32,235 nt of DNA, taken from a bacterium (GTDB lineage Bacteria > Hydrothermota > Hydrothermia > UBA1063). Every line of letters starts with the position of its first letter. Within the stretch, counting starts at the first letter, position 1. The notes under the pieces were generated by a model. It saw nothing but the letters and a program-made list of their open reading frames with translations. It had not been told where the DNA came from and searched no databases. Shown one piece after another: positions 599 to 23,614 of the stretch. Both the position numbers and the translations under genes were made by a program. The stretch covers positions 43,497-75,731 of the forward strand of contig JASEFR010000006.1 of the NCBI GenBank assembly GCA_030019025.1. The letters run 5' to 3'.

Positions 599-1081
599 AT
601 GAAGAAAATTGGATGGTTTTTTTTTGTAATATCTATCGGAATTGTGGGCTATTTCCTCTATTTTTATCATTTTAAGTATGTTCCCGAAATCAACAGATTG
701 CAAGTTTTAATGGAAGAGAATCGTGTTTTGAGAGATAGCCTGCTTAAGGTGTTGCCAGTTGGCAAAATGGAGGTCCGTAAAGCTGAAAAATCCTTCAATT
801 TGCCTTATGAGGTGAAATACAAAATAGAAGATTTTTTTGTAAAAAACTCAGAGAGACTTTCAGACAATGCTAAAAGACGTTTAGGAGAGATTTCAAGATC
901 ACTCTCGGTGATACCTTATGATACAGTGGAGGTTATACTCTTTCCGGGTGGTCAATTGCAGATTAATAGAGCCCTTACTATAAAGAGGGAGCTTATATCA
1001 CAGGGATTAATGGAAGAAAAAGTTTTCGCCCGAGTGACAAAATATGGTGAGAAAGGTTTGATCATAATAAAAGTGAAATGA
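599..1081 (+). CDS. Membrane-anchored protein with coiled coil and OmpA-like C-terminus
   Basis: A 160-residue protein from the ATG at 599. An upstream in-frame ATG at 578 lies within the promoter and is unlikely to be used. Residues about 5-24 form one hydrophobic segment after MKK, leaving the rest outside the inner membrane. Residues about 28-50 look like a short coiled coil (EINRLQVLMEENRVLRDSLL). The last 70 residues have the size and order of an OmpA/MotB-like peptidoglycan-binding fold: a helix (LSDNAKRRLGEISRSL), a strand (VEVILF), an INRALTIKREL helix where the family has its NxxLSxxRA helix, then a closing strand. The classic signature residues are poorly kept, so this assignment is an inference. 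It is first of seven overlapping genes; its TGA overlaps the next ATG (ATGA). Confidence 0.7.
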   Translation: MKKIGWFFFVISIGIVGYFLYFYHFKYVPEINRLQVLMEENRVLRDSLLKVLPVGKMEVRKAEKSFNLPYEVKYKIEDFFVKNSERLSDNAKRRLGEISRSLSVIPYDTVEVILFPGGQLQINRALTIKRELISQGLMEEKVFARVTKYGEKGLIIIKVK

Positions 1082-1968
1082 TCGCATTGATTGTTAATCC
1101 GAGGGCAGGTCGTGGTAAAGCCTTTTCAGAACTTCCAAATGTGGAAAAGTTTGTAAAGAAATTTGAAATTCCGTATGAAGTGTTTATCACGTCGGGACCC
1201 GGTGATGCGACTAAGTTATCGGAAGAAATCAAGGGTTCTGGAAAATTTGAAAAAATTTTGATTTTGGGAGGAGATGGGACTGTTAATGAGGTGATACAGG
1301 CTCTTGTGGGAAGTGAAATTCCCATACTTCCTCTTCCTTTGGGAACGGGAAATGATTTTGTGAAGTTCTTTTATCCGCGTCAAAAATATGATACGGTTCT
1401 GGAAAGGCATCTGTTATCGGATAGGACAGCGAGGATTGACGTTGGTTTTTTGGAGAGTGAAAATTTAAAGAGGTATTTCATCAACGGAATGGGTATTGGA
1501 TTTGATTCTGAAGTTCTTAACAATATGAAAAAAATTAGATTGCTTAAGGGGGATTTCCTTTATACCAGTGCGGTTCTCCTAACTTTTCTACAATTCAAGG
1601 GTACGAATCTGGAAGTTTCTTTAGACAACGGCGAGATATCTTTTGCTGGGAAATTTTTGCTTTTTAATGTAGGTAACGGGCAGTATCTTGGGGGAGGTTT
1701 TAGGCTGTTTCCCGAGGCCAGTCTAAGGGATGGAAAACTGGACATTTCAATTATTGGATCTCTTAGACCGATGAGATTTTTCACTAACTTTTACAAGGCT
1801 TTTAAGGGAAAGCACATAACACTTCCTGAAGTTACTTATATAAAATCTGAAATTATCACAGTAAAATCAAATGTCCCCTTTAATCTCCAGCTGGATGGTG
1901 AACTTGCTCAGAATCTGACCTCTATTAAAGTTTCCGTTAGACCTGCTACTTTAAAGGTGGTAGTATGA
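1078..1968 (+). CDS. Lipid kinase, diacylglycerol kinase catalytic family (YegS/DgkB-like)
   Basis: Predicted cytoplasmic or membrane-associated ATP-dependent kinase for a lipid such as diacylglycerol. The 296 residues match the usual length of YegS/BmrU/DgkB proteins. Diagnostic motifs are NPRAGRGKA (7-15), the nucleotide-binding GGDGT followed by VNEV (64-72) and LGTGND (88-93). The C-terminal half keeps the beta-sandwich pattern, including GNGQYLGGGFRLFPEASLRDGKLD and an LQLDGE segment near residue 275. The start overlaps the previous stop by four bases. In bacteria such enzymes recycle diacylglycerol from phospholipid turnover or make other phospholipids; the exact substrate cannot be read from sequence. 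Confidence 0.88.
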   Translation: MIALIVNPRAGRGKAFSELPNVEKFVKKFEIPYEVFITSGPGDATKLSEEIKGSGKFEKILILGGDGTVNEVIQALVGSEIPILPLPLGTGNDFVKFFYPRQKYDTVLERHLLSDRTARIDVGFLESENLKRYFINGMGIGFDSEVLNNMKKIRLLKGDFLYTSAVLLTFLQFKGTNLEVSLDNGEISFAGKFLLFNVGNGQYLGGGFRLFPEASLRDGKLDISIIGSLRPMRFFTNFYKAFKGKHITLPEVTYIKSEIITVKSNVPFNLQLDGELAQNLTSIKVSVRPATLKVVV

Positions 1969-2888
1969 GATTTGTCGTTCTCGGCATTGGTTCCGTTGGA
2001 GGGTATCTGGTATCCCGGCTGGCTCTGGCAGGTAATACAGTGGAAGCCATTGTAAGTAAGAGATCTAACAAGCGTTTAATTGAAGTTGAAGGGATTGAAT
2101 ATTACGAAAAGGATAAGCGTTACGTTATAAAGGTACCCTGTTATGTTTACGAAGACCTTATGGAGATTGATACAGACTATCTAATCATTGCAACGAAGAC
2201 AGGAGACGCCCTACAAATTCTTGATGATCTCAAAGATAGGCGTTTTAACTTTAATTACATAGTTACTGTTCAAAATGGTATTGAATCTCACCTCAAAGCA
2301 GCTCAGATTTTTGGTGAAGATCATCTGATTCTCTCAATAAGGGAAGGCCTTTATGCCTTTGATTTGCACAAGATAAGGAATGTAAGTTACGGTAAAGTTG
2401 AAAACGTTGTGACGTCTTTAAGTGCAACCAGAGAATCTATGCAACAATTTGCTGAAATTTTAGTCGCTTCCAAGATTCCTGCTACGGTTTCATATGAGGC
2501 CAAGATGGTTTTGCACAAAAAGCTCGTTATAAATAGCATTATTAATCCTATCGCTTCGATTTTGAAAGTCAGGAATGGATATCTTCTAAAAATGCTAACT
2601 ACAAATACGGTGATTGGATTAATGAATGAAGCTATTAAGGTGTTATCCCTTGAAGGTGTATCCCTTAGTCAGATGGAGATAAGTGAAGATTTGAAGTCAG
2701 TACTTAAGGCAACTTCTGAGAATAAGTGCTCCATGCTGCAGGATCTTGAGAAAAAGAAAAAGACAGAAATCGATTATTTGAATGGATATCTACTGCGACT
2801 GGCAAAGAAACACGGGATAGAGATGCCTTTAAATCAAATGGTTTACGATCTCATTACAAGGATGGAGGAGCTCCATGGAGCGCATTGA
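1965..2888 (+). CDS. panE: 2-dehydropantoate 2-reductase (ketopantoate reductase) family
   Basis: Predicted NADPH-dependent reductase converting ketopantoate to pantoate in coenzyme A synthesis. Residues 7-13 (GIGSVGG) form the Rossmann dinucleotide loop. The C-terminal domain keeps the active-site residues known from E. coli PanE: HKKLVIN with catalytic Lys186 and Asn190, followed by INP, then SMLQD (Ser256) and TEIDYLNG (Glu268), ending with the usual HGIEMPLN segment. The length of 307 is typical. Its ATG overlaps the lipid kinase stop (ATGA). No other pantothenate genes lie nearby, so a related 2-keto acid reductase remains possible, but the full set of catalytic residues favours PanE. 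Confidence 0.85.
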   Translation: MRFVVLGIGSVGGYLVSRLALAGNTVEAIVSKRSNKRLIEVEGIEYYEKDKRYVIKVPCYVYEDLMEIDTDYLIIATKTGDALQILDDLKDRRFNFNYIVTVQNGIESHLKAAQIFGEDHLILSIREGLYAFDLHKIRNVSYGKVENVVTSLSATRESMQQFAEILVASKIPATVSYEAKMVLHKKLVINSIINPIASILKVRNGYLLKMLTTNTVIGLMNEAIKVLSLEGVSLSQMEISEDLKSVLKATSENKCSMLQDLEKKKKTEIDYLNGYLLRLAKKHGIEMPLNQMVYDLITRMEELHGAH

Positions 2889-4014
2889 CAAGTTGATGAA
2901 ACTGTTTGAAAATAAGCCCCTGGATGCAATTTTCCTTTTAAAACCTCTCAACATTTTTTATCTGACAGGGGCTTATGTGAATGGTGTACTTTACATCGGT
3001 GGTGAAAGACCGTTGCTTTTCGTGAGGAGGCCCAAAGAAAGACCTCTTAACTCCAGTGCAGATGTAGTTTTCATTAACTCTTTTAAAGATATTAAACCAT
3101 ATATCTCCAGACCCTTGAGTAAAGTTGGTCTTGAACTTGATTCACTTCCTTATAATACAGTGTTAAGAATGATTTCAACTTTTGGGATAGAAGAAACTGT
3201 AGACATATCCAATGAGGTTCGTCTTGTCAGGATGAAAAAGGATGATGTTGAAATTGAGAAAATTAAATCAGCAGGACAAATTGTGGCAAAAGTATTTGAA
3301 AGACTCAGAGATGTTTTTATCCCGGGTATGTCAGAACTGGATTTACTCATAGAGCTTGAGTATTTTTCAAGGAAGGTTGGAAACCTCGGGGTTTACAGAA
3401 TGCATTCCTTTGGAAACGAAGCCTCTTTTTCCCATATAATTCAGGGGGAAAGCGCCTTTTCCCCTTCGTATCTTGATGCCCCAACCGGGGGCCAGGGGGT
3501 ATCCGAGGCCTTCCCACAGGGGGCTTCCCACAGAAAGATAGAACCGAGTAAGCCTTTTACGGTTGACGTGATGATAAATTATGATGGTTACATTGCTGAT
3601 GCCACGAGGACTTTCATATATGGTGATATAAGTGAAGAGATTAAGGATTACTGGGGAAAACTTACTTCAATTTACAGATTTCTGACAGATTTACTTGTTC
3701 CTGGTAGCGTTTGTGAAGATGTTTATTTAAGGACCGTGTCTTATGTTGATTCTCTGGGATTAGGAGAAGCGTTTATGGGTGTAGGACGGGATAAAGTTAA
3801 ATTTATAGGCCACGGTGTGGGCCTTGAAGTCGACGAATTTCCCTTTTTAGCCAGAGGTTTCCCGCTAAGATTGGAGGAAAATACAGTTCTGGCAGTCGAA
3901 CCGAAGCTATTTAGTAAGTCTTTTGGAATAATGGGGATTGAAGATACTTTCTTAATTGAGAAAGATGGACCAAAGTCTTTAATCCCCTTCGACAAAGGGT
4001 TGATTGTTTTATGA
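2875..4014 (+). CDS. M24 family metallopeptidase (Xaa-Pro aminopeptidase-like)
   Basis: Predicted cytoplasmic dinuclear-metal hydrolase of the creatinase/prolidase fold. Residues 1-120 form a creatinase-type N-terminal domain (LKPLNIFYLTG is typical), and residues about 125-375 form the pita-bread domain. All five metal ligands are identifiable: Asp231, Asp242 (ADATRTF), His313 (GHGVGLEVDE), Glu342 (AVEPK) and Glu356 (GIEDT). The length of 379 fits Xaa-Pro aminopeptidases. The ATG lies just after GGAGGAG and overlaps the panE end by 14 bases. The insertion at about residues 185-222 is rich in Gly, Ser and Pro and locally GC-rich. Substrate is unproven; family members remove N-terminal residues before proline or act as dipeptidases. 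Confidence 0.85.
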   Translation: MERIDKLMKLFENKPLDAIFLLKPLNIFYLTGAYVNGVLYIGGERPLLFVRRPKERPLNSSADVVFINSFKDIKPYISRPLSKVGLELDSLPYNTVLRMISTFGIEETVDISNEVRLVRMKKDDVEIEKIKSAGQIVAKVFERLRDVFIPGMSELDLLIELEYFSRKVGNLGVYRMHSFGNEASFSHIIQGESAFSPSYLDAPTGGQGVSEAFPQGASHRKIEPSKPFTVDVMINYDGYIADATRTFIYGDISEEIKDYWGKLTSIYRFLTDLLVPGSVCEDVYLRTVSYVDSLGLGEAFMGVGRDKVKFIGHGVGLEVDEFPFLARGFPLRLEENTVLAVEPKLFSKSFGIMGIEDTFLIEKDGPKSLIPFDKGLIVL

Positions 4015-5079: not shown

Positions 5080-5582
5080 GGCCTATTAAAGCTACTTTGC
5101 TTTATATCGTAAAAGACGGAAGAGTTTTACTTGTGTACAAAAAGAGAGGTCACGGAGAAGGCAAGTGGAATGGCATAGGTGGTAAGATTGCTAATGGCGA
5201 AACTCCTTTGGAGGGCATAATAAGGGAAGCAAAAGAAGAAGTCGGCATAGAGGTAAGAGACGTAAGGCTGAATGGAATTATCTATTTTTATAATGTTTAC
5301 GGGAAGGATTGGTGGGTGTGCGTTTTCAAATCATCAGAATTTGAAGGTAATGTTTCTGAAAGCGAAGAGGTCTTTCCTAAATGGTTTGAATTCAGTGAAA
5401 TCCCTTACGATGATATGTGGGAGGATGATAAGGAATGGCTTCCACACTTGCTTAGAGGTGGTTATTTCATCGGGAATTACTACTTCGAAGGTGATAAACT
5501 GGTAAAATCTGAATTGAATTTAGTTAGCGAAGAAGATCTTTTAAAAGAATACCAGATATTTGTTTCGGAGGGTGTTAAATAG
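5076..5582 (+). CDS. Nudix hydrolase, MTH1/8-oxo-dGTPase type
   Basis: Predicted cytoplasmic pyrophosphatase that clears oxidised or otherwise modified nucleotides. The Nudix box is complete: Gly36, Glu42, Arg50-Glu51, Glu54-Glu55 and Gly57. Two further regions resemble animal MTH1 (NUDT1) more than E. coli MutT: WNGIGGK before the box, and MWEDDKEWLPHLL followed by FIGNYYFEGDKL near residues 112-140, which in MTH1 shape the purine pocket. The length of 168 is close to MTH1. It is the last gene of the operon and its stop lies 14 bases from the convergent ARPP-1-like gene, with no obvious hairpin terminator between them. Confidence 0.85.
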   Translation: MRPIKATLLYIVKDGRVLLVYKKRGHGEGKWNGIGGKIANGETPLEGIIREAKEEVGIEVRDVRLNGIIYFYNVYGKDWWVCVFKSSEFEGNVSESEEVFPKWFEFSEIPYDDMWEDDKEWLPHLLRGGYFIGNYYFEGDKLVKSELNLVSEEDLLKEYQIFVSEGVK

Positions 5583-5596
5583 AATAAGGATGGGAT

Positions 5597-6502
5597 TTAT
5601 TCAGACGGAAAGGCCGCAACATGCAAAAGATTACCCTGGCTGGAAAATACTTTAGTAAGTAAGCTTTCTTTGCTTCCGATCAGGACTTCTCCCTCTGTTG
5701 GGGATTTGTGTTTTTTTAAGGTGATATCACTTATGAGATTAATAACCTCTTCAGGCGATTTGGGGATTGATGGCCCCTTTACATACCTTCTTATGTACCC
5801 ATCGAGAATATAACTTTTTAGCAGTTTTTTCTCAAATCTTCTATATATGGAATTAGAACCGAAAAAGTCGCACCCTATGAACTCGTCCTTTACGTATGCG
5901 AGAAATCCAATAGAATTTTCGATGGTCTCAAAGCCTTCCATAAGTTCTTCAATTACGTCATTTAAAGTTTTGTAAATGTCATGGAAGGAGCTTGTGAGAC
6001 TGCTAACCTTTGTCGCCTTTAATGTGCTGTCGATTTGAGACCAAATTAGCGACTGATTACTCTTAAACCCTCGTTTTTTCTCAAGGGATTCCTTTACAGT
6101 TTGAGCCAGTGTGCTTCTCAAAGTAGGAGTTATTGTGAATCCACCTTCGCTGAAAATTGGGCTTCCTGCCCATCGGTGCTGTTCGATGCAGGTTACGGGA
6201 ACCACATATTCTTTTTGAGGTTCTATGTATACATCCACGTTTAAAATTCTATTTTGCCTGGCTCCGAGAAGTTCCTCTCCATCTATTGCGAAGACCGGCC
6301 TTTCTCCGTTATTTTGGATTGATATTTTATCTACGCCGTGGGTATCTTTAAGAATGACACTTTTGTTTATTATTGCCTCCTCAAGGGTTGTAAAACCATC
6401 ATCTCCCAATTTACCTTCAATAGGGTGGATTTTAACATTGTGAATGAAAAATGGACTTCCAATTTTTAAATTACTAATAGACCATAAATCTTTTGATTTC
6501 AT
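5597..6502 (-). CDS. ARPP-1 family (DUF6569-like) domain protein
   Basis: A 301-residue protein recognisable by its central block: DGEELLGARQNRILN near residues 75-90, the VPVTCIEQHRW segment near 102-112, and GF/SNQSLIW further on. These are hallmarks of the ARPP-1 family (ARG and rhodanese-phosphatase-associated protein), which is widespread in bacteria and archaea but has no established biochemical activity. No signal peptide or membrane segment is visible, so it is probably cytoplasmic. It lies 18 bases after the GGDEF-ATPase-TPR gene yet has its own promoter inside the end of that gene; the ATG sits six bases after the -10 box without a ribosome binding site. Confidence 0.75.
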   Translation of the reverse strand: MKSKDLWSISNLKIGSPFFIHNVKIHPIEGKLGDDGFTTLEEAIINKSVILKDTHGVDKISIQNNGERPVFAIDGEELLGARQNRILNVDVYIEPQKEYVVPVTCIEQHRWAGSPIFSEGGFTITPTLRSTLAQTVKESLEKKRGFKSNQSLIWSQIDSTLKATKVSSLTSSFHDIYKTLNDVIEELMEGFETIENSIGFLAYVKDEFIGCDFFGSNSIYRRFEKKLLKSYILDGYIRRYVKGPSIPKSPEEVINLISDITLKKHKSPTEGEVLIGSKESLLTKVFSSQGNLLHVAAFPSE

Positions 6503-6508
6503 AATAAA

Positions 6509-6537
6509 ATATTAGCGTCATTATTGTGAAGAGTCAA
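6509..6537 (-). promoter_or_regulatory. Promoter of the ARPP-1-like gene, leaderless type
   Basis: On the minus strand, TTGACT (6532-6537), a 17-base spacer and TAATAT (6509-6514) are followed by six bases and the ATG at 6500-6502. The -35 box lies within the last codons of the upstream GGDEF gene. The spacing predicts transcription starting at the start codon. Confidence 0.65.
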
Positions 6538-9500
6538 CAAGAAAAAGCCTCTTAACTCTTTCTATCTTTCTTTTGAAGCGTTCAACATCTTGCGTGAATA
6601 AATTCCTCTCACTGTACTTGATGAGGAAATTCAAAATTTTAAGAGTGATATTGCCTTTACCCAGGTAACAGAACGTGTCTGCAATTCCCTCCAGAAAGGT
6701 AGTCCAGAAATCTATTCTTCTTTTTGGATCTGCTTTTTCAATGATTGACCATGCTTTCTGAAATGCTTGTTTAAATTCTTCTTTTTTACCAAAGTAAAAA
6801 TTGAACGCCATTTCAATTGAATAGGTGTTGATCTTTAACTCTTCATAAACACTGTTTTCAAGAGCCTGTTTTAATGTTTCCAAAAGCTCCTTTACTTTGT
6901 CATAGTCTTTTGCTATGAGGAAGATTTCAATTGCTTGTAAATAAACTATGAGGCTTGCGTGCGTTTTCTTTGGACTTCCTATTTCCTTCAAGACTTCGTT
7001 TATAATAGGTATAGATTTTTCAAGGTCTTTAAATCCTATAGCGTGTACATAAGCTAAATTTCTTTTAATGGAAATTAGAGCGTCTTTCATTCCCAATTCG
7101 CTGGCAACTTGATATGCCTCCTTTATAGCTTCTAAGGCCTCTTGATGATATTCCATGTGCCTTAGAGTTACCGAAATGTTATTCAAGGCAAGTGCAAGAA
7201 GATGCCTGTCAAACACTTTTTTCGACTCTATGGCGGCCTTTTTGAAGTTTTCAAGAGCCTCTTCGTACCTTCTCAAATCAAGATATATGGATGCTTTGTT
7301 GTTAAGGACTGTTATAAGTCCACTTTTATAGCCAGCCTTTCTATAGTAAAATTCAGCTCTATCATACTCCTTGAGGGCTTCTTCGTATTTGCCAGCGCGG
7401 GATAGGACAATGGCTCTGTTTACACACACGCTTCCAAGCCCACGAATATTTTGAAGTCTATTCCTTATTTCTTCGGCTTTTTCAAGAAACTCCAAGGCTT
7501 TATCAATCTGGTTTAAGTCCATTAAGTTTAGTGCCTGAGCATTATATGCATCAGCGAGGGTCTTCTCGTCTATCTGGATATCCTGTCGATTTAGAAGGTC
7601 CTCAAGCAGGTTATAAGACTCCTGTATTTTAAATTGTCTTTTCAAAATCCACGCTTTTAGGGTAAGAGATTCTGCATTTTCTTCCAGTTCTAGGGATTTT
7701 TCAATGGCTTCCATTGCACTGTGGGGATCACCACTCTCAACGAGGAGCTCAGCCAGTTTTCTGTATGAAAGAGCTGATACTTTATTATTTGCAATAAAGT
7801 CTTTCAAAAGTTCTATGGCTTTTTTAAGTTCACCTTTGATGGAGAGAAGGGTAACATATTCTGCAAAGGCTTTCTCCCTTTCTACTTCGTTGTCTTCTGC
7901 TTCTACATACCATTGTAAAAACCTAATGGCTTCGTCATAGGCAAAGGCTTTCTTCGTTTTTTCAGCAGCAAGCTTGGAATAAAACTTAATTTTTTCCTTA
8001 TCCTGAGATTGCCAGGCGTGGTAAGCGCAGAGCTCCTCTTTTCCTCCAAAACTCGGTAGTTTATTTTCGAGAACTTCTAAAATAGTTCTTGATATGTATC
8101 GCTTTTTTGCCGAGCTGATTTCGTTTAAAATTGCGTCTCTTATGAGGCCCTCTTTAAAAGCAAAATAATCCTCATTTAGCTGTACTATCAGGTTCTCCTT
8201 CAAGAGCTTGTTTATAACATCATAAATATGTCCCCGGTTAAGATTCGTAACGTTTGCTATTAGATCAATGTGAAATTCCTGACCTGTAATGGCGGCGACT
8301 TCCAAGACTTTTTCTCCAGAAAACTTTTTAATTTTGTTTTTTAGTAGAACTTCTATGGTTTCAGGTAAAATTATCTTATCATACTCTTTTAATTTCCACT
8401 CATCGTCTTCAAAAACAATATGGCCTTTCTCAAAAAGTTCTTTAATTACTTCTTCAATAAAGAGTGGATTTCCACCAGTTTTCTGGAAAATCAGCTTCTT
8501 TAAATCATCTTGAGCTGGGGCTTGAAGGATAGATTCAACGAGCTCAAAGGTGGAAGATTCTTCAAGGGTTGGTATTTCAAATTCAATTGTTAGTTTCTCG
8601 TCAAGTAACTTCTTTAAAGTCTCTTTAAGGTATGATGTTTCGAGCTCTTCAATCCTTGCGGTAGCAAGAATCTTTATGTTTTGTGGAGTATTTCTGACAA
8701 TATAATTTATCAAGTTTACAGAACTACTATCGATCCAGTGAATGTCATCAATGTATATGAGAAGTTGTTTATTGTCTGCTATCTCTTCTAGTAGTTGCAT
8801 AAAGGTTTCAAAGAATTTAAAGATTCCTATGTCGGCGGCAACCGGCTGGATTAAATCTGAGATTATGGGCCTTAATGCCTGTTTTTGGTAAGAGTCGAGA
8901 TTTGAATAGATTTCCCTGAATCCTATTTCGTCTTTTTCTCTGTATCTCTTTATGAGTTCCTGAAAGGGGACGTAAGGAATCTGGGAGAGGCTCCCGTAAC
9001 ATTGCGAGAATAAAATTTTTGAATCTTCAATAAGTTTTAAACATTCTATTGCAAATCGACTTTTACCAATACCTGCTTCGCCTTTGATAAGAACTAAAGG
9101 ATAATGCTTGTTAAGGAGTGTAATTAGTTTCGCTTTTTCTTTTTGCCTTCCAACAAAGATTTTAGAGGGTATCTTGGGGTAAAGGGTTTCCTCAAGGTAG
9201 GTAAAGAATCTTCCCTTTCCTTTTTGTTTTGCTTTGTACATTGCCTTGTCTGCTTTTTCTACTAATATTTCTGGTTCGCTTCCGTGGGTAGGAATTTCCA
9301 CTATACCAATGGAGCAGGATATTTTAATGTTTTGATCAAAAAGGTTTTTGATAATTCTACTGGCAACGTTTTCTGCACTCTCTAAAGATGTACTGGGAAG
9401 TAATATGATGAATTCGTCTCCTCCATATCTAACGATGATATCTGATTCTCGCAAAGTATTTTTAAGAATTTTGACGAAACTTACCAAGGTCTTATCACCT

Positions 9501-9682
9501 TCAAGATGCCCATAAAGGTCATTTATAGACTTGAAATTATCAAGGTCAACAAATAAAAGGGAGCTTTTCCCGCCGTATCTTTTTATTCGCTTTACTTCCT
9601 GCTCTATAAGTGAATAAATTGCACCTCTTGTGAGTGCACCTGTTAAGTCATCCACTATGTTTTTTACAGTTTCCCTTATCAT
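6521..9682 (-). CDS. GGDEF - STAND-like ATPase - TPR signalling protein (copy with intact GGDEF)
   Basis: A 1053-residue cytoplasmic signalling protein. Residues 1-165 are a diguanylate cyclase domain with metal site DLDNFKSINDLYGH, intact GGDEF (87-91) and an RESD inhibitory I-site (78-81) at the canonical five-residue distance. Residues about 175-400 are an AAA_16/STAND-type ATPase with Walker A GEAGIGKS (201-208) and Walker B LLIYIDDIHW (307-316). A winged-helix-like region and long TPR repeats fill about 560-1000. The plan resembles adenylate cyclase-ATPase-TPR and MalT-like regulators, with GGDEF as output. It likely makes c-di-GMP in response to a ligand or partner bound by the TPRs (inference). 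The stop of its paralogue is one base before its ATG, so translation is probably coupled. Confidence 0.9.
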   Translation of the reverse strand: MIRETVKNIVDDLTGALTRGAIYSLIEQEVKRIKRYGGKSSLLFVDLDNFKSINDLYGHLEGDKTLVSFVKILKNTLRESDIIVRYGGDEFIILLPSTSLESAENVASRIIKNLFDQNIKISCSIGIVEIPTHGSEPEILVEKADKAMYKAKQKGKGRFFTYLEETLYPKIPSKIFVGRQKEKAKLITLLNKHYPLVLIKGEAGIGKSRFAIECLKLIEDSKILFSQCYGSLSQIPYVPFQELIKRYREKDEIGFREIYSNLDSYQKQALRPIISDLIQPVAADIGIFKFFETFMQLLEEIADNKQLLIYIDDIHWIDSSSVNLINYIVRNTPQNIKILATARIEELETSYLKETLKKLLDEKLTIEFEIPTLEESSTFELVESILQAPAQDDLKKLIFQKTGGNPLFIEEVIKELFEKGHIVFEDDEWKLKEYDKIILPETIEVLLKNKIKKFSGEKVLEVAAITGQEFHIDLIANVTNLNRGHIYDVINKLLKENLIVQLNEDYFAFKEGLIRDAILNEISSAKKRYISRTILEVLENKLPSFGGKEELCAYHAWQSQDKEKIKFYSKLAAEKTKKAFAYDEAIRFLQWYVEAEDNEVEREKAFAEYVTLLSIKGELKKAIELLKDFIANNKVSALSYRKLAELLVESGDPHSAMEAIEKSLELEENAESLTLKAWILKRQFKIQESYNLLEDLLNRQDIQIDEKTLADAYNAQALNLMDLNQIDKALEFLEKAEEIRNRLQNIRGLGSVCVNRAIVLSRAGKYEEALKEYDRAEFYYRKAGYKSGLITVLNNKASIYLDLRRYEEALENFKKAAIESKKVFDRHLLALALNNISVTLRHMEYHQEALEAIKEAYQVASELGMKDALISIKRNLAYVHAIGFKDLEKSIPIINEVLKEIGSPKKTHASLIVYLQAIEIFLIAKDYDKVKELLETLKQALENSVYEELKINTYSIEMAFNFYFGKKEEFKQAFQKAWSIIEKADPKRRIDFWTTFLEGIADTFCYLGKGNITLKILNFLIKYSERNLFTQDVERFKRKIERVKRLFLVDSSQ

Positions 9683-9683
9683 A

Positions 9684-12600
9684 TCAGAAAGCCCTTTCCA
9701 AGTTTTCTTTTAATAGCATTAGTCTCTGCGATTCTAAATTTAACATTTTACTTTCAGCATCTTCTATCAGTTTTGATAGGATTTTTTTCATTCCTTCTTT
9801 TTTTGCCAATTGTCCAAGTAGAAGGGCAAAATATTCGTTGTATCGCACCTTCTCGTCTTCTCTTGAATTTTTCCGCAGTTTGGCAAGCTCTTTTAATGAT
9901 TCTAAGAAAGCTTTGTTGTCACTTCGTTTAAAGTTTAATATGCTCTTTATTATGTAATACTTCAAATTCATGTCAAAGGTTTTTGCTTCTTTAAGGGAAT
10001 TGTCAAACTGTTCAATTAGTCGACTTGCTCGGTCTATTTCGCGAAGGTATAATAAGTTCTCTGCGGTTTCAAGGACAGTGGAGGCAAGGGTGGTTGTGGA
10101 ATCAATGCGAGGTAGTAATTTATTTATTTCTTCATACTTTTTTAGTGCTTTTCCTTTATCGATTGTACCCCTGCTGTAAAGGTTCATGAATAATTGACTT
10201 ATAAAGAGGTTTAGCGTTTCAATTTGAAGGTTACCGGATACTTGTTCAGCTTCAGTCAAGAGTTTTTCCGCTTTCTCATGTTCACCTATGTCAATGTATA
10301 GTGAAGCCAAATTGCCTATGCCTATTACTAATGAAAGGTCATCCCCGATTTGTCGGGCGATTTTGATTGCGCTTTCAAGACCTTTGATGGCTTCTTCGTA
10401 TCTTTTGATGTATTTTAAGGTATCGCTGTAGTTGTGAATGGTGATGAGTACTCCCCGTTTATCTCCAATGCTATTATAAATTTCCTTAGCTTTTTCGTAC
10501 TCCTCAAGGGCTTGCTGATACAACCCCTGATTTGCGTAGAGTGTACCAAGATTTAAATAAATATTCGCCACGCCTTTTTCATTACCCAGTTTTTCTCGCA
10601 ATTCCAGTGCCTTTCTGAAATATTTTTCCGCCTTTTCAAATTCTTCTTGTTCCATTAAGAGAAGGGCACAGGTGTTGTAGTAATATGCTTTTTCGGGATC
10701 TGGGAGGTCGTTCTCTTTATTTTTAAATTCTTCTAAGATTTTTGAAGCCTCTTTTATTTTTTCACCGAATAAAAGAAGCCAGGCCTTTCTCAGAATATAA
10801 AAATCCTTTTTCTCAATTTTTATTGCCTTCTCAATGCTTTCTATGGCTTCGTAAAATTTTCCAGATTTTGAATAGGCTTCAGCCAATTTATTCAATATTG
10901 CTGCATCGTCTCCAAATTTGGAAAGGTATTGGTTTAGTTCTTTTATGGCTTTTACTATGTCTCCAATGTGTAATAGTAACTCTGCATATTCAAGTGTAGC
11001 TTCTTTTGCCTTGCCCGGATCATCCTCTATCTCAAGGTACCATTTGTAGTATTTCAACGCTTCTTCGTATGCGTAGAATTTTCTGAATTTTCTTGCTGCG
11101 TTTAGCGAATATTTTTTAACTTTTTCCGTTTCGCCGGCGTAATAGGCATGATGGGCGAGTTTTTCCTCAGGAACTTTAAGTATTTCTTTGTGGCTTTCAA
11201 GCGTTAAAAGAATACTTTTGTGAATAAATCTTTTTCTGTGTTCGGTAAGTTGGGACAATACAATTTCCCTTGTAAGTCCTTCTTTAAAAGCGAAGGTGTC
11301 TAAGCCTCTTTCAACAAGAATACCTGTCCTTATAAGTTTGTCAATTATGTCAAAGACCTCCCCGATGTTGGTTTTGGCAACAAGCTCGAGAATTTTTATG
11401 TTGAATTCGTTACCCAAACAGGCCATTATTTCAAGTATCTTTTCACTTTGGAAGCGTTTTAACTTTTCTGTTACTATGTTTTGAAGAGATTCAGGAACAT
11501 GGTCTTTATAATCAGTTTTAATGTGCCAGAGTTCTCCGTCGAAGGTAATAATTTCGTGTTTAAAATACTCTTTGATTGTTTCTTCTATAAAATAGGGATT
11601 TCCGCCACATTTTTCATATAGCCTATGTTTCAAACTTTCAGAACATTTTCCCTGTAGAATTGTTTCTATTAGTTCAAAAGTCTCAGCCTGGGTCAGTTCC
11701 TTAAGCTGTAACTCTTCAATCAGCCTTTCCCTTGTGACATGGGAGTAAAATTTTTCAAAGCTTTTGTTTTCCAGCTCTTCTTTTCTAAAAGCGAGAATCA
11801 ATTTAAGATTTTCTAAGCCTGCGTGTGCAACATAGTATAAAAGTTCAAGGGAAGGGGGATCTACCAGATTCAAGTCGTCTATAAAAGCAACGATCTTGTG
11901 GCGTCCAGAAAAGAGGGAAATTAGCTTTACATATGCATCGTAAAATTTGTATCGATCTACATTTTCAGGGATATACCCAAGCTCAGGATAAAGTAAACTT
12001 AGGGCTCTTCTTTCACTTTCATCAAGGGATTCTAAGGCGTCCTTGAAGAAGAAGTTGTCAGTTTCTTTAATTTTTTTTAAGATTATTTTGAGGGGGTAGA
12101 ATGGTGTAGAAAGTTCATCTCTTGAGGGTTTAGCAATTACAATAAGATAATCTTTTAAATTTTTTAGTGCTTCCTTAATCAAAGTAGATTTACCAACTCC
12201 TGGCGCACCTGAAACTGCTATTATTGGAACTTCTGATTTACTGATTTTTTCTAAAAGCCACAATAGTTCATTCTTTCTCCCTGCAATAATTGGTGCGGGA
12301 ATAATTGGAGCTATAGAATCTTCTTCTTGCAAGATGTAGTAAGTCTCTTTTCCACCTTTTTTCGCTTTGAATAGTGCTATTTCCAGTCTGGAAAAGATAG
12401 TTTGCCAGTCTGTTCCGTAGGTAGGAACTTCAACGACACCAATGGAGCAAGACACCTTACTTTTTCCGAAATCCTTGTTTTTAAGTTCATTTATTATCCT
12501 TTCACAAACGAATTTTGCATTAACCGCTGTTGTATTAGGTAGGATTACAATAAATTCATCGCCACTTAACCTAATCACCGTGTCTGACTCACGCAAGGAT

Positions 12601-12824
12601 TTCACAAGGAATTGGGCAAATTCATACAGCAGTCGGTCGCCTTCTTTGTGACCGTAAAGGTTGTTCACCAGATTGAAATCATCAAGATCTATATAAAGGA
12701 TTGTGAATTGCCCACCGTATCTTCTTATTTTTTTCAACTCTTGTGAAAAAATAATATCCAGGTAACGCCGATTGTATACCTGAGTAAGCTCGTCTTTTAG
12801 ACTATCTACAAGATCTAAAAACAT
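9684..12824 (-). CDS. GGDEF-like - STAND-like ATPase - TPR signalling protein (copy with SGDEF)
   Basis: A 1046-residue paralogue of the next gene with the same domain order. The cyclase domain (1-165) carries SGDEF at 87-91 instead of GGDEF and NN in place of the usual ND of the metal/substrate loop (DLDDFNLVNNLYGH), while the RESD I-site (78-81) is kept. Some SGDEF proteins are active, so this may be a weak cyclase or a c-di-GMP receptor. Walker A is GAPGVGKS (206-213) and Walker B is IVAFIDDLNL near 315. TPR motifs such as KAYYYNTCALLLMEQEEFEKA and GNEKGVANIYLNLGTLYANQG run from about 560 to the end. It is first in the minus-strand unit, from a promoter ending ten bases before its ATG. Confidence 0.88.
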   Translation of the reverse strand: MFLDLVDSLKDELTQVYNRRYLDIIFSQELKKIRRYGGQFTILYIDLDDFNLVNNLYGHKEGDRLLYEFAQFLVKSLRESDTVIRLSGDEFIVILPNTTAVNAKFVCERIINELKNKDFGKSKVSCSIGVVEVPTYGTDWQTIFSRLEIALFKAKKGGKETYYILQEEDSIAPIIPAPIIAGRKNELLWLLEKISKSEVPIIAVSGAPGVGKSTLIKEALKNLKDYLIVIAKPSRDELSTPFYPLKIILKKIKETDNFFFKDALESLDESERRALSLLYPELGYIPENVDRYKFYDAYVKLISLFSGRHKIVAFIDDLNLVDPPSLELLYYVAHAGLENLKLILAFRKEELENKSFEKFYSHVTRERLIEELQLKELTQAETFELIETILQGKCSESLKHRLYEKCGGNPYFIEETIKEYFKHEIITFDGELWHIKTDYKDHVPESLQNIVTEKLKRFQSEKILEIMACLGNEFNIKILELVAKTNIGEVFDIIDKLIRTGILVERGLDTFAFKEGLTREIVLSQLTEHRKRFIHKSILLTLESHKEILKVPEEKLAHHAYYAGETEKVKKYSLNAARKFRKFYAYEEALKYYKWYLEIEDDPGKAKEATLEYAELLLHIGDIVKAIKELNQYLSKFGDDAAILNKLAEAYSKSGKFYEAIESIEKAIKIEKKDFYILRKAWLLLFGEKIKEASKILEEFKNKENDLPDPEKAYYYNTCALLLMEQEEFEKAEKYFRKALELREKLGNEKGVANIYLNLGTLYANQGLYQQALEEYEKAKEIYNSIGDKRGVLITIHNYSDTLKYIKRYEEAIKGLESAIKIARQIGDDLSLVIGIGNLASLYIDIGEHEKAEKLLTEAEQVSGNLQIETLNLFISQLFMNLYSRGTIDKGKALKKYEEINKLLPRIDSTTTLASTVLETAENLLYLREIDRASRLIEQFDNSLKEAKTFDMNLKYYIIKSILNFKRSDNKAFLESLKELAKLRKNSREDEKVRYNEYFALLLGQLAKKEGMKKILSKLIEDAESKMLNLESQRLMLLKENLERAF

Positions 12825-12891: not shown

Positions 12892-13731
12892 CTACAAACT
12901 CAACTCCGATAATAACTTGGCATATTCTTCTTGAATCCGCGAGGTGATGGAGCTTAGGGGGATTTTTATATTTTCAATTCTATTAACAGGAAGAATATCA
13001 TAGGTTGTCCCAGCCAGGAATGCACCTTCCAGTTTCTGGATTTCTTGGAGTAATATTGGCCTTTCTTCCACGGTAATTTGTTGCTTTTGGGCAATGTATA
13101 TTACTTTTTCTCTTGTAATGGACGGTAGAATCTCGTTCGTTGCGGGATAAGTAATCAATTTTCCGTCTAATATCCCAAAGAAGGAGGATGAGGTGCTTTC
13201 AGTGATGTAGCCGTTTTTATGAAATAGTGCATCAAAAAATCCCCTTTCTTTTGCTTCAATTTTCGCAAGCACATTGGGTAGAAGCATGGTCGTTTTTATG
13301 TCACAGCGCGCCCACCGGATGTCAGGATAAAGTATCACCGAAACTCCTTCTTTAAAGAGTCTTGACGCAAGTGGTTTGAATTCGCTGGTGATTAATATAA
13401 GTGTGGGCTTCGTATTTTTTTTCGGTAAATGACTCCTTGGCTCTTTTCCTCTGGTTATCTGCACATATATGGCCGCTTCTTTTTTCTTGAGTTTTTTTAG
13501 TGATTTTTTGATTATCTCTTCAAGTTCTTCTTTATCAAGTGGGTAGTTTATTTTCAATTCCTTTAGCCCCCGTTCGAGTCTTGAAAGGTGCTCGTCGAGG
13601 AATAAAGGCTTTTCGTTTCTTGCTCTGATCACCTCATAAACGCTGTCGGAAAAGAAAAATCCCCTGTCCTCTACGCTTGAGAGGGGTTTCCTTTTAAATT
13701 TTCCGTCAAGAAAATAGACTCTTTTTGCCAT
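12892..13731 (-). CDS. dat: D-amino acid transaminase (class IV PLP aminotransferase)
   Basis: Predicted cytoplasmic PLP enzyme interconverting D-alanine and D-glutamate with their keto acids. The 279 residues match Bacillus D-amino acid transaminase. Diagnostic segments are DRGFFFSDSVYEVIR near 22-36, YVQITRG followed by PRSHLP (the Arg and His that bind the substrate carboxylate in the Bacillus enzyme), and DIRWARCDIKTTMLLPNVLAK, whose Lys carries PLP. The YITESTSSSFFGI and AGTTYDILPV segments also fit. The Arg-x-His feature favours D-amino acid over branched-chain or aminodeoxychorismate members, but this is not proof. The ATG lies six bases after a -10-like box with no ribosome binding site. 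It is divergent from pdxS. Confidence 0.8.
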   Translation of the reverse strand: MAKRVYFLDGKFKRKPLSSVEDRGFFFSDSVYEVIRARNEKPLFLDEHLSRLERGLKELKINYPLDKEELEEIIKKSLKKLKKKEAAIYVQITRGKEPRSHLPKKNTKPTLILITSEFKPLASRLFKEGVSVILYPDIRWARCDIKTTMLLPNVLAKIEAKERGFFDALFHKNGYITESTSSSFFGILDGKLITYPATNEILPSITREKVIYIAQKQQITVEERPILLQEIQKLEGAFLAGTTYDILPVNRIENIKIPLSSITSRIQEEYAKLLSELSL

Positions 13732-15310: not shown

Positions 15311-16579
15311 ATGTTTGAAAACTTAAGAAAAACTGACCGTGAAGTGTTTGAGGCTATCTTTAATGAGCTTCAAAGGCAGAGAAATGGCCTTGAGCTAATT
15401 GCTTCGGAGAACTTCACTTCTGATGCAGTGATGGAAGCGATGGGCAATGTTATGACCAACAAGTACGCGGAGGGGTATCCTGGGGCGCGGTATTATGGGG
15501 GATGCGAATTTGTGGATGTAGTTGAGAAGCTTGCCATTGAAAGGGCAAAACAGCTTTTTGGTGCTGATCATGTTAACGTCCAGCCTCACTCGGGTGTTCA
15601 GGCAAATATGGCGGTTTATTTCGCGGTACTAAATCCCGGCGACACAATTTTATCGATGCAGCTTTCTCATGGCGGTCACCTTTCTCATGGCCACAAGGTT
15701 TCTTTTTCTGGAAAACTTTACAATGTAGTCCATTACACAGTTCACCCTGAAACGGAAAGGATTGATTTTGACCTCGTAAGGAAGCTTGCTTTAGAACATA
15801 AGCCCAAGATTATTTTATCAGGATATTCAGCCTATCCCAGAATTATTGAGTGGGATAAGTTCAGGGAAATTGCAGATGAGGTTGGAGCCTATTTCATGGC
15901 CGACATTGCGCACATTGCTGGACTTGTTGCAGCAGGAGTTCATCCCTCACCTATTCCTTATGCCCATTTTGTTACAACGACGACTCATAAAACCTTGCGT
16001 GGACCGAGAGGCGGTATGATTATGTGCAAGGCTGAGTTTGCGAAAGATATTGATAAAGCGGTATTTCCGGGCGCTCAGGGAGGACCATTAATGCATGTTA
16101 TTGCTGCGAAGGCCGTTGCTTTTAAGGAGGCACTTACTCCTGAATTTAAACAATACCAGGAGCAGATTGTAAAGAACGCTAAGAAGCTGGCTGAGACCCT
16201 CATGTCCGAGGGACTGCGTCTTGTTACAGGAGGGACGGATAATCATTTAATGCTCGTGGATTTGAGACCCTTTAAGATTACTGGAAATATTGCTGAAAAG
16301 GCTCTGGAAAAGGCGGGCATTACAGTGAACAAAAATACTATCCCCTTTGATCCCGAAAAGCCCACAGTTACAAGTGGTATAAGGATTGGAACCCCCGCAG
16401 TGACTACAAGGGGTATGAAAGAGGATGAGATGGTAAAGATAGGGAAATTAATAAGTAAGGTTTTAAAGGCTCCCGATGATGAGAAGGTTATTGCCGATGT
16501 AAGAAGGGAAGTTCAGGAACTCTGTGAATCCTTTCCGCTTTATCAGGATCGGTATGAAAATATGAGGAGACTTTTATGA
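15311..16579 (+). CDS. glyA: Serine hydroxymethyltransferase
   Basis: Cytoplasmic PLP enzyme converting serine and tetrahydrofolate to glycine and 5,10-methylene-tetrahydrofolate, a main source of one-carbon units. The 422-residue length is typical. Conserved features include ELIASENF near 28-35, [40 protein letters not shown] and the PLP-binding [14 protein letters not shown] with Lys227. The C-terminus keeps the [14 protein letters not shown] segment. The start follows the pdxT stop by one base and has GGGAGAAG upstream. Being co-transcribed with PLP synthase places a PLP consumer directly with the cofactor's producer. Its stop overlaps the next ATG (ATGA). Confidence 0.97.
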
Positions 16580-17391
16580 AGAAAATATTAAAAGCATCGC
16601 CTCTTCTAATTTTGGTTGGTTTACTATTCGCATCTCACGAAAACATTGGAATTACTACCTATTCAAGATCAATTTCTGAAAGCGGCGTTGGTGGTGTCTT
16701 TGGTGTAGAGGCTCTCTTTATTAATCCTGCAGGTCTTTCTTCTGGTTCCAAATTTGAACTTTTGCTTTCTTATGAAATCCCTTATGGTAACATTAAGGGC
16801 CTAAAATCAACAATTCTTGGATTTAAGTATTCTAATTTTGCTATTGGGATTAGTGAGTATTTTCTGAACATAGAGAATGAGGGCAAGTACGCTGAAGGAA
16901 TGTATCTCCTCTCTTATGGGAGAAATGTAGGGGTCATCAATGTAGGTGGCAGTTTAAATATATACAAGTTTCAGGACCCAAGATTTGGCACAGATTACAA
17001 GGGTGGAATTGATCTGGGCATACAATCTGCGGTCTCAGATTTTGTTTCTGCCGGTGTTTTTTATAAAAATATAACACGAAGTGCTATCAGGGGAAGCGAT
17101 TTGCCTCAATATTTGGATACCGGTATAACTATTTCCATTCAAGGATTGAGTTCCACTTATTTGAGTTTTCGTATGTATCCTGGCAATTCTCCCATTTTTA
17201 TGCTCGGTGAGGAGGTTTCCCTCGCAGATGGGCTTCTTCAGGTTAAAGGGGGTCTAAATTACGGTGATGATTACAAAAAGGCTTCCTTTGGGCTTGAAAT
17301 TAATTTGAAAGGTTTTATTGTAGGTTATGCCTTTTCAACGAACTTTGAGTTGTCTCCCGCTCATTCCTTTTCTATCAATTTCAGGAGGTGA
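16576..17391 (+). CDS. PorV/UPF0164-like outer-membrane beta-barrel protein
   Basis: A 271-residue exported protein with an N-terminal signal (about 1-19, [18 protein letters not shown] then AS). The mature start has the pattern of the PorV/PorQ/UPF0164 group: a [19 protein letters not shown] segment followed by repeated amphipathic strands of alternating Gly, aromatic and polar residues up to SFSINFRR. It is short for a PorV (usually 330-400). In type IX secretion PorV-like proteins shuttle cargo at the outer membrane, but many relatives lie outside that system. The ATG overlaps the glyA stop by four bases, so an outer-membrane gene is fused into a metabolic operon. Confidence 0.65.
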
Positions 17392-21058: not shown

Positions 21059-21146
21059 AAAGGCACAATTTTAAAGAATAAAACTTCAACTTTTTGAAAA
21101 TTAGAAATTTTGGCTATAAACTTTATCTGTAAAAACAGTGAGTATA

Positions 21147-22280
21147 ATGAGATTGTTTACTTTGCGCTTTAAAGACACGGGTCTTGAGAGAAAATTCCGT
21201 GAGGAATATGCACGAAAATCTTTGCCAATTATAAGGTTGGCCTTACTTTTTGGTATTTTCCTATATTCAATCTTTGCCTTACTTGACGCTGTAATAGTTG
21301 GGACTTTGAAAACGGTAATTTGGATGATCAGATTCGAGTTTGTCGTTCCTGTTATTTTTATTTTATTTTTCCTGACTTTTCTAAAAATTTTTCACAGGCA
21401 TTTACAAATGATATCATCTCTTGCTGCACTAATAGGTGGTTTTGGTATCCTTGCAATGCTTGCGCTTATAAAACCCCCTTCAATGTATCTGTACTCTCAA
21501 GGCTTGACATTGGTTTTGTTTTTTAACTTTGCTCTGCTGAGGTTAAGGTTTGTCTACGCAGCAATTAACGGTATTATTCTCTTAATTGGATTTCAAATTG
21601 TGAGTTTGAAAGTTAATCCGTTACCAAAGGCGGTTTTTATTAACAACAATTTTTTCCTCGTCTCTACTTACGCAGGTGGTCTTTTTATCTCCTACGTTAT
21701 GGAAAAACTGGAAAGGGAAAATTTTCTACACACTATAACTCTTAAAAAAATTGCCGAAACAGACGGACTTACTGGAGTAATGAACAGAAACTCTCTTCTT
21801 AGCACATTAAAGATAGAAGCACAAAGAGTTGCCCAAAAAGGCGAAAACCTTGTTTTTTGCATGATAGACCTGGATAACTTTAAAGAGGTTAATGATTATT
21901 TTGGACATCTAAAAGGGGATGAACATTTGAAGAATTTCGGACAAATATTGTCTAAGAAATTTCGCACGACAGACTATGTCGGCAGGGTAGGGGGCGATGA
22001 ATTCGGTGTAATCCTTGTTGGGCTTTCTGACATAGGAAGAGTGATTGATGCTTTTAGAGACGTTAGAAAAGAATATTTTAGCTTACAGGCAGATTCAGTT
22101 ACTAAATCATCATTTTCCGTGGGATGTGTCTTCTTTAATAGTCCCGAAGCATCTCAGGATGAGTTTTTCTTCTATTCTTTAGCTGATATTGCCCTTTCGA
22201 AAGCCAAGGAGAAAAAGAATACTATATGCATTGTGGACCAGAGAAACAAATGTCTTTATTTCGGAGAAATAAAATCTTAA
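21147..22280 (+). CDS. Membrane-bound diguanylate cyclase (GGDEF)
   Basis: Predicted inner-membrane enzyme making c-di-GMP. From the ATG at 21147 it has 377 residues; a GTG nine bases earlier is also in frame and neither has a good ribosome binding site. About six hydrophobic helices lie between residues 25 and 185, forming a membrane sensor domain I do not recognise. A short helix leads to ETDGLTGVMNRNSL, then the cyclase domain with MIDLDNFKEVNDYFGH and GGDEF about 282-286. RTTD sits exactly five residues before GGDEF, an intact inhibitory I-site. A 12-base inverted repeat (CTGT/ACAG) precedes the start, and the 88-base gap after carbamate kinase holds a TTGAAA/TATAAA pair with suboptimal 15-base spacing. 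Confidence 0.88.
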   Translation: MRLFTLRFKDTGLERKFREEYARKSLPIIRLALLFGIFLYSIFALLDAVIVGTLKTVIWMIRFEFVVPVIFILFFLTFLKIFHRHLQMISSLAALIGGFGILAMLALIKPPSMYLYSQGLTLVLFFNFALLRLRFVYAAINGIILLIGFQIVSLKVNPLPKAVFINNNFFLVSTYAGGLFISYVMEKLERENFLHTITLKKIAETDGLTGVMNRNSLLSTLKIEAQRVAQKGENLVFCMIDLDNFKEVNDYFGHLKGDEHLKNFGQILSKKFRTTDYVGRVGGDEFGVILVGLSDIGRVIDAFRDVRKEYFSLQADSVTKSSFSVGCVFFNSPEASQDEFFFYSLADIALSKAKEKKNTICIVDQRNKCLYFGEIKS

Positions 22281-22319
22281 CGGAAGTATTAATGAATAAT
22301 TTTGAAGGAGGGTTTCAAT

Positions 22320-23021
22320 TTGATACATCGCAGGTTCTTTCTGGTAGTATTTTTTTTAATAACAGGATGTTCTAGGCTTCCTCAAATGCCGGAGCCTACT
22401 TCTCAACCAATAATTCCGGTTTTTGAGGTTTTTGGGTATGCGAGATGCCCTAATTGTTCTATTGTTGAAAAGTCCCTCGACTCTCTGAAACAAAACTTGA
22501 GCGATTCTGTTGTGGTTTTGCAGTATCATATGAGAACTCTTGGTGATACTCTCTCCCCCGAATCGATTTTGGAAAGGCAAAATCTTTATAATATTGGATC
22601 TTCCGCTCCTGTTACGATCATTCACGGGGAGGAAAGAATTGAAGGTTCTTCTGGAGTGAGTTTGAGCATGTTTGAGAACTATTACAGAGCACTTAGAAGC
22701 CGGGAAGATTCTTTAGGACTAAAGGTAACATATATAGATGAAGGTGATACGGCGAGAATGATAATTGGTGCGGCTGGTGAATTTAGTTTGGAAAGATTAA
22801 AATTGTTTGTGTTTCTTACGAGGGATAGCATAATCTTTAAACAGCCCGGTGCCCCCGATTCCATTTTCAACAATGTTGTAACGTTCTACCGTTCATCGGT
22901 TGCAGCGATACCTTATGAGATGAAAGTTGATAAAAACCTTTTAATTGGTGGTAATTTTGTGGCTTTTTTACAAGATACTGTTAATTTAAAAATAATTAGT
23001 GTGCTACAAAGGAGGTTTTAA
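22320..23021 (+). CDS. Lipoprotein with thioredoxin-like CPNC motif (Omp28/DUF1223-like)
   Basis: A 233-residue predicted lipoprotein. AGGAGGGT at 22306-22313 points to the TTG at 22320 (MIHRRFFLVV) rather than the earlier in-frame TTG. The lipobox is LITGC with Cys17. Next comes a Pro-rich linker and a thioredoxin-like core: FEVFGYARCPNCSIVEKSL with Cys43 and Cys46, and APVTIIHG about 70 residues later where a cis-proline loop is expected. This order resembles Omp28-related and DUF1223 proteins. The C-terminal third is a strand-rich region of unknown fold. It probably acts on thiols in the periplasm or at a membrane surface (inference). It is first of four tightly packed genes for exported proteins. 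Confidence 0.65.
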   Translation: MIHRRFFLVVFFLITGCSRLPQMPEPTSQPIIPVFEVFGYARCPNCSIVEKSLDSLKQNLSDSVVVLQYHMRTLGDTLSPESILERQNLYNIGSSAPVTIIHGEERIEGSSGVSLSMFENYYRALRSREDSLGLKVTYIDEGDTARMIIGAAGEFSLERLKLFVFLTRDSIIFKQPGAPDSIFNNVVTFYRSSVAAIPYEMKVDKNLLIGGNFVAFLQDTVNLKIISVLQRRF

Positions 23022-23614
23022 TGGGCAGTGTAGTTTTTATCATAATTATTTCAATGTTTTCTCTCAGGACTTTGGGTTCTCCTTATATTTATGTGGATAC
23101 TAACAGCTATGCCACTTTGAAGATTGAACTTTTAAATGACAGCATTCCAAGAAACCTTATATTTCACTTTGAGCGAATATCTGCCCCCTCGGATCTACAG
23201 TTTATGCAGTGTATTCAACAAATGTGCTATTATTCAGATAGTGTTGAGGTGAGTATTCCTTCGGGGATTAGAGATACGATTCAGCTTGACTTTTACTCAG
23301 GTTCTGAAACTGGTCCATTGAATGCGGTATATAGAGTTTATGATGCTGACAATTTTCAGGATAGGGATTCAGTTTATATCACAGGGCAGGTTCCTGTCAG
23401 AGAGTTCACGAAAAGACTTTACTACAAGTCTGGCATGCTTTATGGTGATGGGTTAAAAAGAGTCGAGGTTTACGATCCACAGGGTGTTTTACTTTTTTCA
23501 AGAGATCTTGATTATGTGAATTCTCTTCCGTTTGAACTTAAAAATGGGGTTTATTTTATTAGAGCCTTTACATCATCAGAAGTGCAAACCTTAAAAATAT
23601 TGGAGGTTAAGTAA
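23021..23614 (+). CDS. Exported protein with type IX sorting-tail-like C-terminus
   Basis: A 197-residue protein; its ATG overlaps the previous stop by one base and follows GGAGG. Residues 1-20 form a hydrophobic signal peptide. The middle part is strand-rich and holds a close cysteine pair, Cys64 and Cys69 (CIQQMC). The last 50 residues run KRVEVYDPQGVLLFS, a short loop, then ELKNGVYFIRAF and TLKILEVK, the pattern of a type A sorting domain of type IX secretion (Por_Secre_tail). That tail normally sends cargo to the cell surface in Bacteroidetes-like organisms; here it is an inference from pattern. I do not recognise the rest. Confidence 0.6.
   Translation: MGSVVFIIIISMFSLRTLGSPYIYVDTNSYATLKIELLNDSIPRNLIFHFERISAPSDLQFMQCIQQMCYYSDSVEVSIPSGIRDTIQLDFYSGSETGPLNAVYRVYDADNFQDRDSVYITGQVPVREFTKRLYYKSGMLYGDGLKRVEVYDPQGVLLFSRDLDYVNSLPFELKNGVYFIRAFTSSEVQTLKILEVK

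Follow-up and report, generated by a model that had tools for sequence, protein, structure and literature searches.

The DNA window analyzed here, a single stretch of 32,235 nucleotides, encodes two adjacent paralogs on the minus strand, P1 (6521-9682, 1053 aa) and P2 (9684-12824, 1046 aa). The sequence analysis supports P1, and less certainly P2, as a STAND-type signaling NTPase with an N-terminal GGDEF domain in the effector position. Open reading frames, Pfam matches, and alignment agree with the first-pass annotation that these tandem proteins join GGDEF, a Walker-type ATPase, and TPR repeats, and the placing of GGDEF ahead of a STAND-type NTPase with TPRs is upheld by Pfam, by profile matches in the PDB, and by Foldseek. 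Each of the domains is well known; the GGDEF-STAND-TPR architecture is apparently undescribed. No description of a GGDEF-STAND/AAA_16-TPR family was found in open papers, most subscription journals falling outside the search, and a prior description is possible. GGDEF has been listed as a rare signaling domain of NTP-dependent conflict systems (PMC7159879).

P1 and P2 are full-length paralogs with 32% identity over 1056 aligned columns. As the first-pass annotation anticipated, the profiles for GGDEF (P1 5.7e-41, P2 4.4e-38), AAA_16 (2.4e-18 and 7e-12), and several TPR families (best 2.6e-18 and 1.6e-26) match both proteins, and Pfam finds no effector domain other than GGDEF in either. The GGDEF domain of P1 (9203-9658, aa 9-160; Pfam and family alignment) contains DxLT at aa 11-14, the I-site RESD at aa 78-81, and GGDEF at aa 87-91, and its metal and base residues are intact at all active-site positions checked. 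It is followed by the AAA_16 NTPase (8681-9157, aa 176-334; Pfam and alignment) with Walker A GEAGIGKS at aa 201-208 and Walker B LLIYIDD at aa 307-313, by the remainder of the nucleotide-binding module (8048-8680, aa 335-545; alignment and PDB profile match) with Arg 343 and GGNP at aa 403-406, and by a TPR superhelix of approximately 13 helical hairpins (6542-8038, aa 549-1047; Pfam and the AF2 model). In P2, the corresponding parts are the GGDEF domain (12345-12797, aa 10-160; Pfam and alignment), the AAA_16 NTPase (11820-12281, aa 182-335; Pfam and alignment) with Walker A GAPGVGKS and Walker B IVAFIDD, and a TPR region with approximate limits (9705-11147, about aa 560-1040; Pfam), all likewise on the minus strand. 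The GGDEF motif proposed for both proteins is present in P1; P2 has SGDEF, and DLDDFN replaces DxDxFK, with Asn in place of Lys, while the I-site RESD is kept. Judged from these residues, P1 seems to be the member of the pair with a sound active site, and P2 itself is drifting, with the motif changed to GGDKF in one species. Proteins with SGDEF can be active, as ECA3270 is and MbaA seems to be, yet Ser at this position abolished the activity of VCA0965 (PMC3974145, PMC8079147), so that P2 may or may not be active.

The features of STAND proteins found in P1 and P2 are the Walker A P-loop, an hhhhDD Walker B, a GxP-like motif, and C-terminal repeats. When a profile of the NOD region was compared with the PDB, the best match was the plant NLR Sr35 (two sequences at approximately 1e-6, matching over part of the NOD), followed by a mixture of weaker matches, among them the NLRs NRC2 and NRC4 (approximately 0.005-0.012), Clp ATPases, and MalT (0.067). 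The GGNP present in both P1 and P2 is presumed, from its position, to be the counterpart of the NLR GxP motif; this region lies within the part matching Sr35, and most family members have a GNP-like sequence. A winged helix is presumed to lie within aa 335-545 of P1, a region for which Pfam gives no such model and where AF2 confidence is mostly below 50 (aa 433-524). The AF2 model of P1 was built from two sequences, P1 and P2 (a single-sequence run gave a pLDDT of 44), and depicts the TPR hairpins at a pLDDT near 90 and much of the GGDEF domain and NOD poorly. Foldseek with this model returned 6mfv, a STAND protein with TPRs, as the best match (E 4.6e-9), with low TM-scores and high rmsd. No HTH or LuxR-type DNA-binding domain is among the listed Pfam matches, and TPR_MalT fell under its cut-off. 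Membership of the MalT family was ruled out by the lack of a DNA-binding domain detectable by Pfam.

An alignment of 49 long relatives was used to examine conservation. The RxxD I-site and the guanine-site Asn and Asp are present in all 49, and GGDEF or SGDEF in 48 (GGDEF in most, SGDEF in three), the remaining protein, from G002, having GGDKF. The Walker A Lys is conserved in 46 of the 49, and the three exceptions form one orthogroup, consisting of C31 from the window's own genome and its counterparts in the congeneric species G001 and G002, in which the Walker A Lys and the Walker B Asp are lost and GGDEF is intact. In the sister species G003, the C31-type gene is apparently split (L127:5355-7997, plus strand) into a 257-aa GGDEF frame and an 880-aa STAND-TPR frame, which is either a real break or a sequencing error. 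Across the family, the residues ahead of DxLT number 10 at the median, and 22-28 residues separate the GGDEF domain from the NTPase. In known diguanylate cyclases (DGCs), a dimeric coiled-coil almost invariably joins the input and catalytic domains on the N-terminal side (PMC8041772). Most GGDEF domains of the family lie too close to the N-terminus for a coiled-coil to precede them, from which we infer that the signal arrives from the C-terminal end. Among P2-type orthologs, the TPRs are the least conserved part (36-45% identity, compared with 62-72% for GGDEF), which fits a sensor role. Because dS was saturated, pN/pS alone was used.

P2 is the first gene of the pair in the direction of transcription. 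At the junction (9680-9700, minus strand), the stop codon of P2 and the start codon of P1 are arranged as TGA-T-ATG with one base between them, as described by the first-pass annotation, and a Shine-Dalgarno-like GGAAAGG lies approximately 10 bases 5' of the P1 start. In G003, the same GGAAAGG is found at the same distance and the codons abut as TAA-ATG. The coupled translation deduced from this gap is possible, in that the junction permits it, and is not proven, given that P1 has a Shine-Dalgarno-like site of its own. A class IV aminotransferase gene (12892-13731, minus strand) lies 67 bases upstream of P2, and an ARPP-1 domain gene (5597-6502, minus strand) lies 18 bases downstream of P1. 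Both neighbors are kept in the genus, in each of its four species, with their identity in the other species assigned by eye from the first residues, and the ARPP-1 gene product is 80% identical between the window and G003. The literature search found no paper on ARPP-1. A NUDIX gene lies beyond the ARPP-1 gene. Another GGDEF protein, of 380 aa with a C-terminal GGDEF domain (aa 206-361), is encoded approximately 8 kb away on the opposite strand (21138-22280, plus strand), and four ORFs of the window have no Pfam match at 0.001: 22302-23614 (+), 16576-17391 (+), 25612-26526 (-), and 30447-31292 (+). Rfam gave no matches in the window. Promoter- and terminator-like sites exceed the shuffled-sequence level, and no single site was relied on.

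A search of genome contigs with P1 returned mainly GGDEF-only matches, which are uninformative about the spread of the architecture, and a profile spanning GGDEF and the NTPase region was used instead on 147 genomes of the phylum and 50 genomes from other groups holding GGDEF genes. The architecture is common in the phylum, with matches spanning both regions in at least 52 of the 147 genomes, in approximately 14 families among the matches listed, and up to 14 copies per genome. Counted in long frames, such proteins supply 14 of the 26 GGDEF matches of G006 and 8 of the 22 of G005; in the window's own genome they supply 5 of 12, a total that includes one 40-aa frame. Two of the 50 other genomes, those of Candidatus Geothermocultor (Actinomycetota according to NCBI) and Desulfobacteraceae SURF_3, encode an N-terminal GGDEF-AAA_16 arrangement with HEAT repeats. 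Among plasmids, no convincing relative came up; a record with an EAL annotation matched with 85% query coverage and 26.5% identity. The tree has long branches and weak deep support, and the GGDEF-STAND fusion may have arisen once or more than once.

The genome carries ten HD-GYP, one EAL, and three MshEN matches, and among nine genomes of the order, this one included, HD-GYP-type domains and MshEN occur in all nine and EAL in seven, with no PilZ match in any of them. This indicates that these genomes encode the means to break down c-di-GMP and a likely receptor for it. Two class III cyclase-AAA_16 genes are also found in the window's genome, at L023:601-3930 and L191:888-4565, and one is divergent from the C31 GGDEF gene, an arrangement repeated in G001 and G002. 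On L023, the class III cyclase-AAA_16-TPR gene (601-3930, minus strand) faces away from the GGDEF-AAA_16-TPR gene (5163-8522, plus strand), and on L023, L131, and L134, the divergent pair adjoins genes resembling Rnf subunits, identified by eye. In G006, a GGDEF-STAND-TPR gene is followed, after 43 bases, by a class III cyclase-STAND-TPR gene (L142:7688-11329, plus strand), and the two are possibly a cAMP and c-di-GMP pair. The parallel with class III adenylate cyclases drawn by the first-pass annotation thus stands on genes of the same genome, one of them beside such a GGDEF gene; the parallel with MalT fails at the DNA-binding domain.

On balance, we regard a STAND switch with GGDEF as its effector as the probable explanation for P1, and less certainly for P2. 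The domains and their order, the conservation of residues of the catalytic site, the I-site, and the Walker and GxP-like motifs, the kinship to NLR and STAND proteins, the lack of an N-terminal dimerizing linker, and the c-di-GMP hydrolases and MshEN domains of the genome are directly seen. In the proposed mechanism, the C-terminal TPR superhelix would be the sensor that keeps the resting ADP-bound protein closed. A ligand or partner at the TPRs would cause the nucleotide-binding module to swap ADP for ATP and self-assemble, and assembly would let at least two GGDEF domains meet face to face and produce c-di-GMP, with product feedback via the RxxD site. The effector-NOD-repeat order, the class III cyclases that this genome carries on a related chassis, and the replacement of TPR by HEAT repeats in other phyla support this explanation. 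The SGDEF and Asn-for-Lys changes of P2, the GGDKF of the G002 protein, and the weakness of the AF2 model and of the 6mfv match count against it. ATP switching cannot be universal in the family, because the C31 orthogroup, in three species, lacks the Walker residues. Added nucleotides revealed no isoform-specific regulation of human full-length sAC, the nearest studied analog (PMC12802110), and this result together with the C31 group is evidence against the generality of the STAND switch.

Alternatively, the GGDEF domain could be the input, with the I-site binding c-di-GMP and gating STAND assembly, and with protein binding via the TPRs as the output. P2 would be the clearest case. In favor of this reading, RxxD is invariant even where catalysis looks impaired, as in the P2 group (SGDEF and FN) and the GGDKF protein, and neither P1 nor P2 has a second effector domain detectable by Pfam. 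However, most members have an intact GGDEF motif together with intact metal, base, and Lys positions, which would not be expected under selection for binding only, and in related proteins the N-terminal slot holds class III cyclases, which suggests an output slot; we consider this alternative unlikely. A division of roles, in which P1 is a STAND-switched c-di-GMP synthase, P2, with its drifting active site and intact I-site, is a c-di-GMP-reading STAND protein that joins the P1 assembly or reacts to P1, and the many-copy members of the phylum run much of their c-di-GMP signaling via NLR-like assemblies, seems to us quite unlikely as a whole. An anti-phage sensor of the Avs kind, using a cyclic dinucleotide as an alarm signal, would have a similar plan, in that the effector-STAND-TPR order resembles that of Avs. 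PADLOC matched only generic TPRs, a TPR-bearing candidate model included, and gave no match to Avs or other STAND defense models beyond the TPR type. Moreover, the loci of family orthologs are shared by four species, the tree follows the species pairs, the neighbors of P1 and P2 are metabolic genes, and the genome possesses c-di-GMP hydrolases and MshEN, all of which makes a defense role highly improbable.

The first-pass annotation proposed that the pair forms a hetero-oligomer. A dedicated complex made from a single transcript, with the drifting P2 GGDEF domain paired to the sound one of P1, is favored by the gap of zero or one base kept in two species, by the sister relationship of the two proteins, and by the combination of a typical with an atypical GGDEF domain. 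At this locus, P2 and P1 are both present in the window's species and G003, and G001 and G002 have a single P2-type gene with SGDEF or GGDKF and are without P1. Of the 63 family ORFs inspected, few form direct tandems, namely those of this pair, of its G003 counterpart, and of a G006 pair with a 352-base gap. Copies of this common architecture are, accordingly, seldom paired. With the separate Shine-Dalgarno-like site of P1, these observations make the dedicated complex very doubtful, and its obligate form is not borne out. P1 and P2 are sisters in the tree (SH-aLRT 96) and the P2 type occurs in all four species, from which it is likely that the genes duplicated before the species split and that G001 and G002 lost P1. 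The pair would thus represent an old tandem duplication and is unlikely to be an obligate hetero-oligomer.

If the STAND switch with a GGDEF effector is correct, c-di-GMP signaling would be joined to the STAND/NLR switches that immune receptors use, and STAND activation could be followed simply, through a soluble product. Control of the known c-di-GMP cyclases is mainly by sensors at the N-terminus, via a coiled-coil; here, it would be exerted from the opposite end, by assembly. In genomes such as G006, this design may be one of the main means by which the c-di-GMP level is set.

The closest known systems are the class III adenylate cyclase-AAA_16-TPR proteins of bacteria and ADCY10/sAC of animals, which likewise have an N-terminal cyclase, a STAND-like NTPase, and a long C-terminal region; they use another cyclase family (CHD, producing cAMP) and their NOD similarity to P1 and P2 is weaker. 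In sAC, the cyclase domains number two, and bicarbonate and calcium regulate the enzyme (PMC12802110). MalT and 6mfv share the NOD and TPR sensor, but MalT carries a terminal LuxR-type DNA-binding domain, whereas P1 and P2 are without it and have GGDEF in front. Plant NLR resistosomes, e.g., Sr35 and NRC2, have an N-terminal effector, a NOD with Walker and GxP-like motifs, and C-terminal repeats, but their effector is a coiled-coil and their sensor an LRR. The canonical DGCs PleD, WspR, and DgcR have the same GGDEF, DxLT, metal and base residues, and RxxD I-site, and are driven by N-terminal input via a coiled-coil, whereas the presumed regulator of P1 and P2 is C-terminal. Kinase-AAA_16-GGDEF proteins, such as that of Oceanirhabdus (L194:1085-6454, minus strand, 1789 aa), also combine AAA_16 and GGDEF in one chain, but with an N-terminal Ser/Thr kinase and with GGDEF near the C-terminus.
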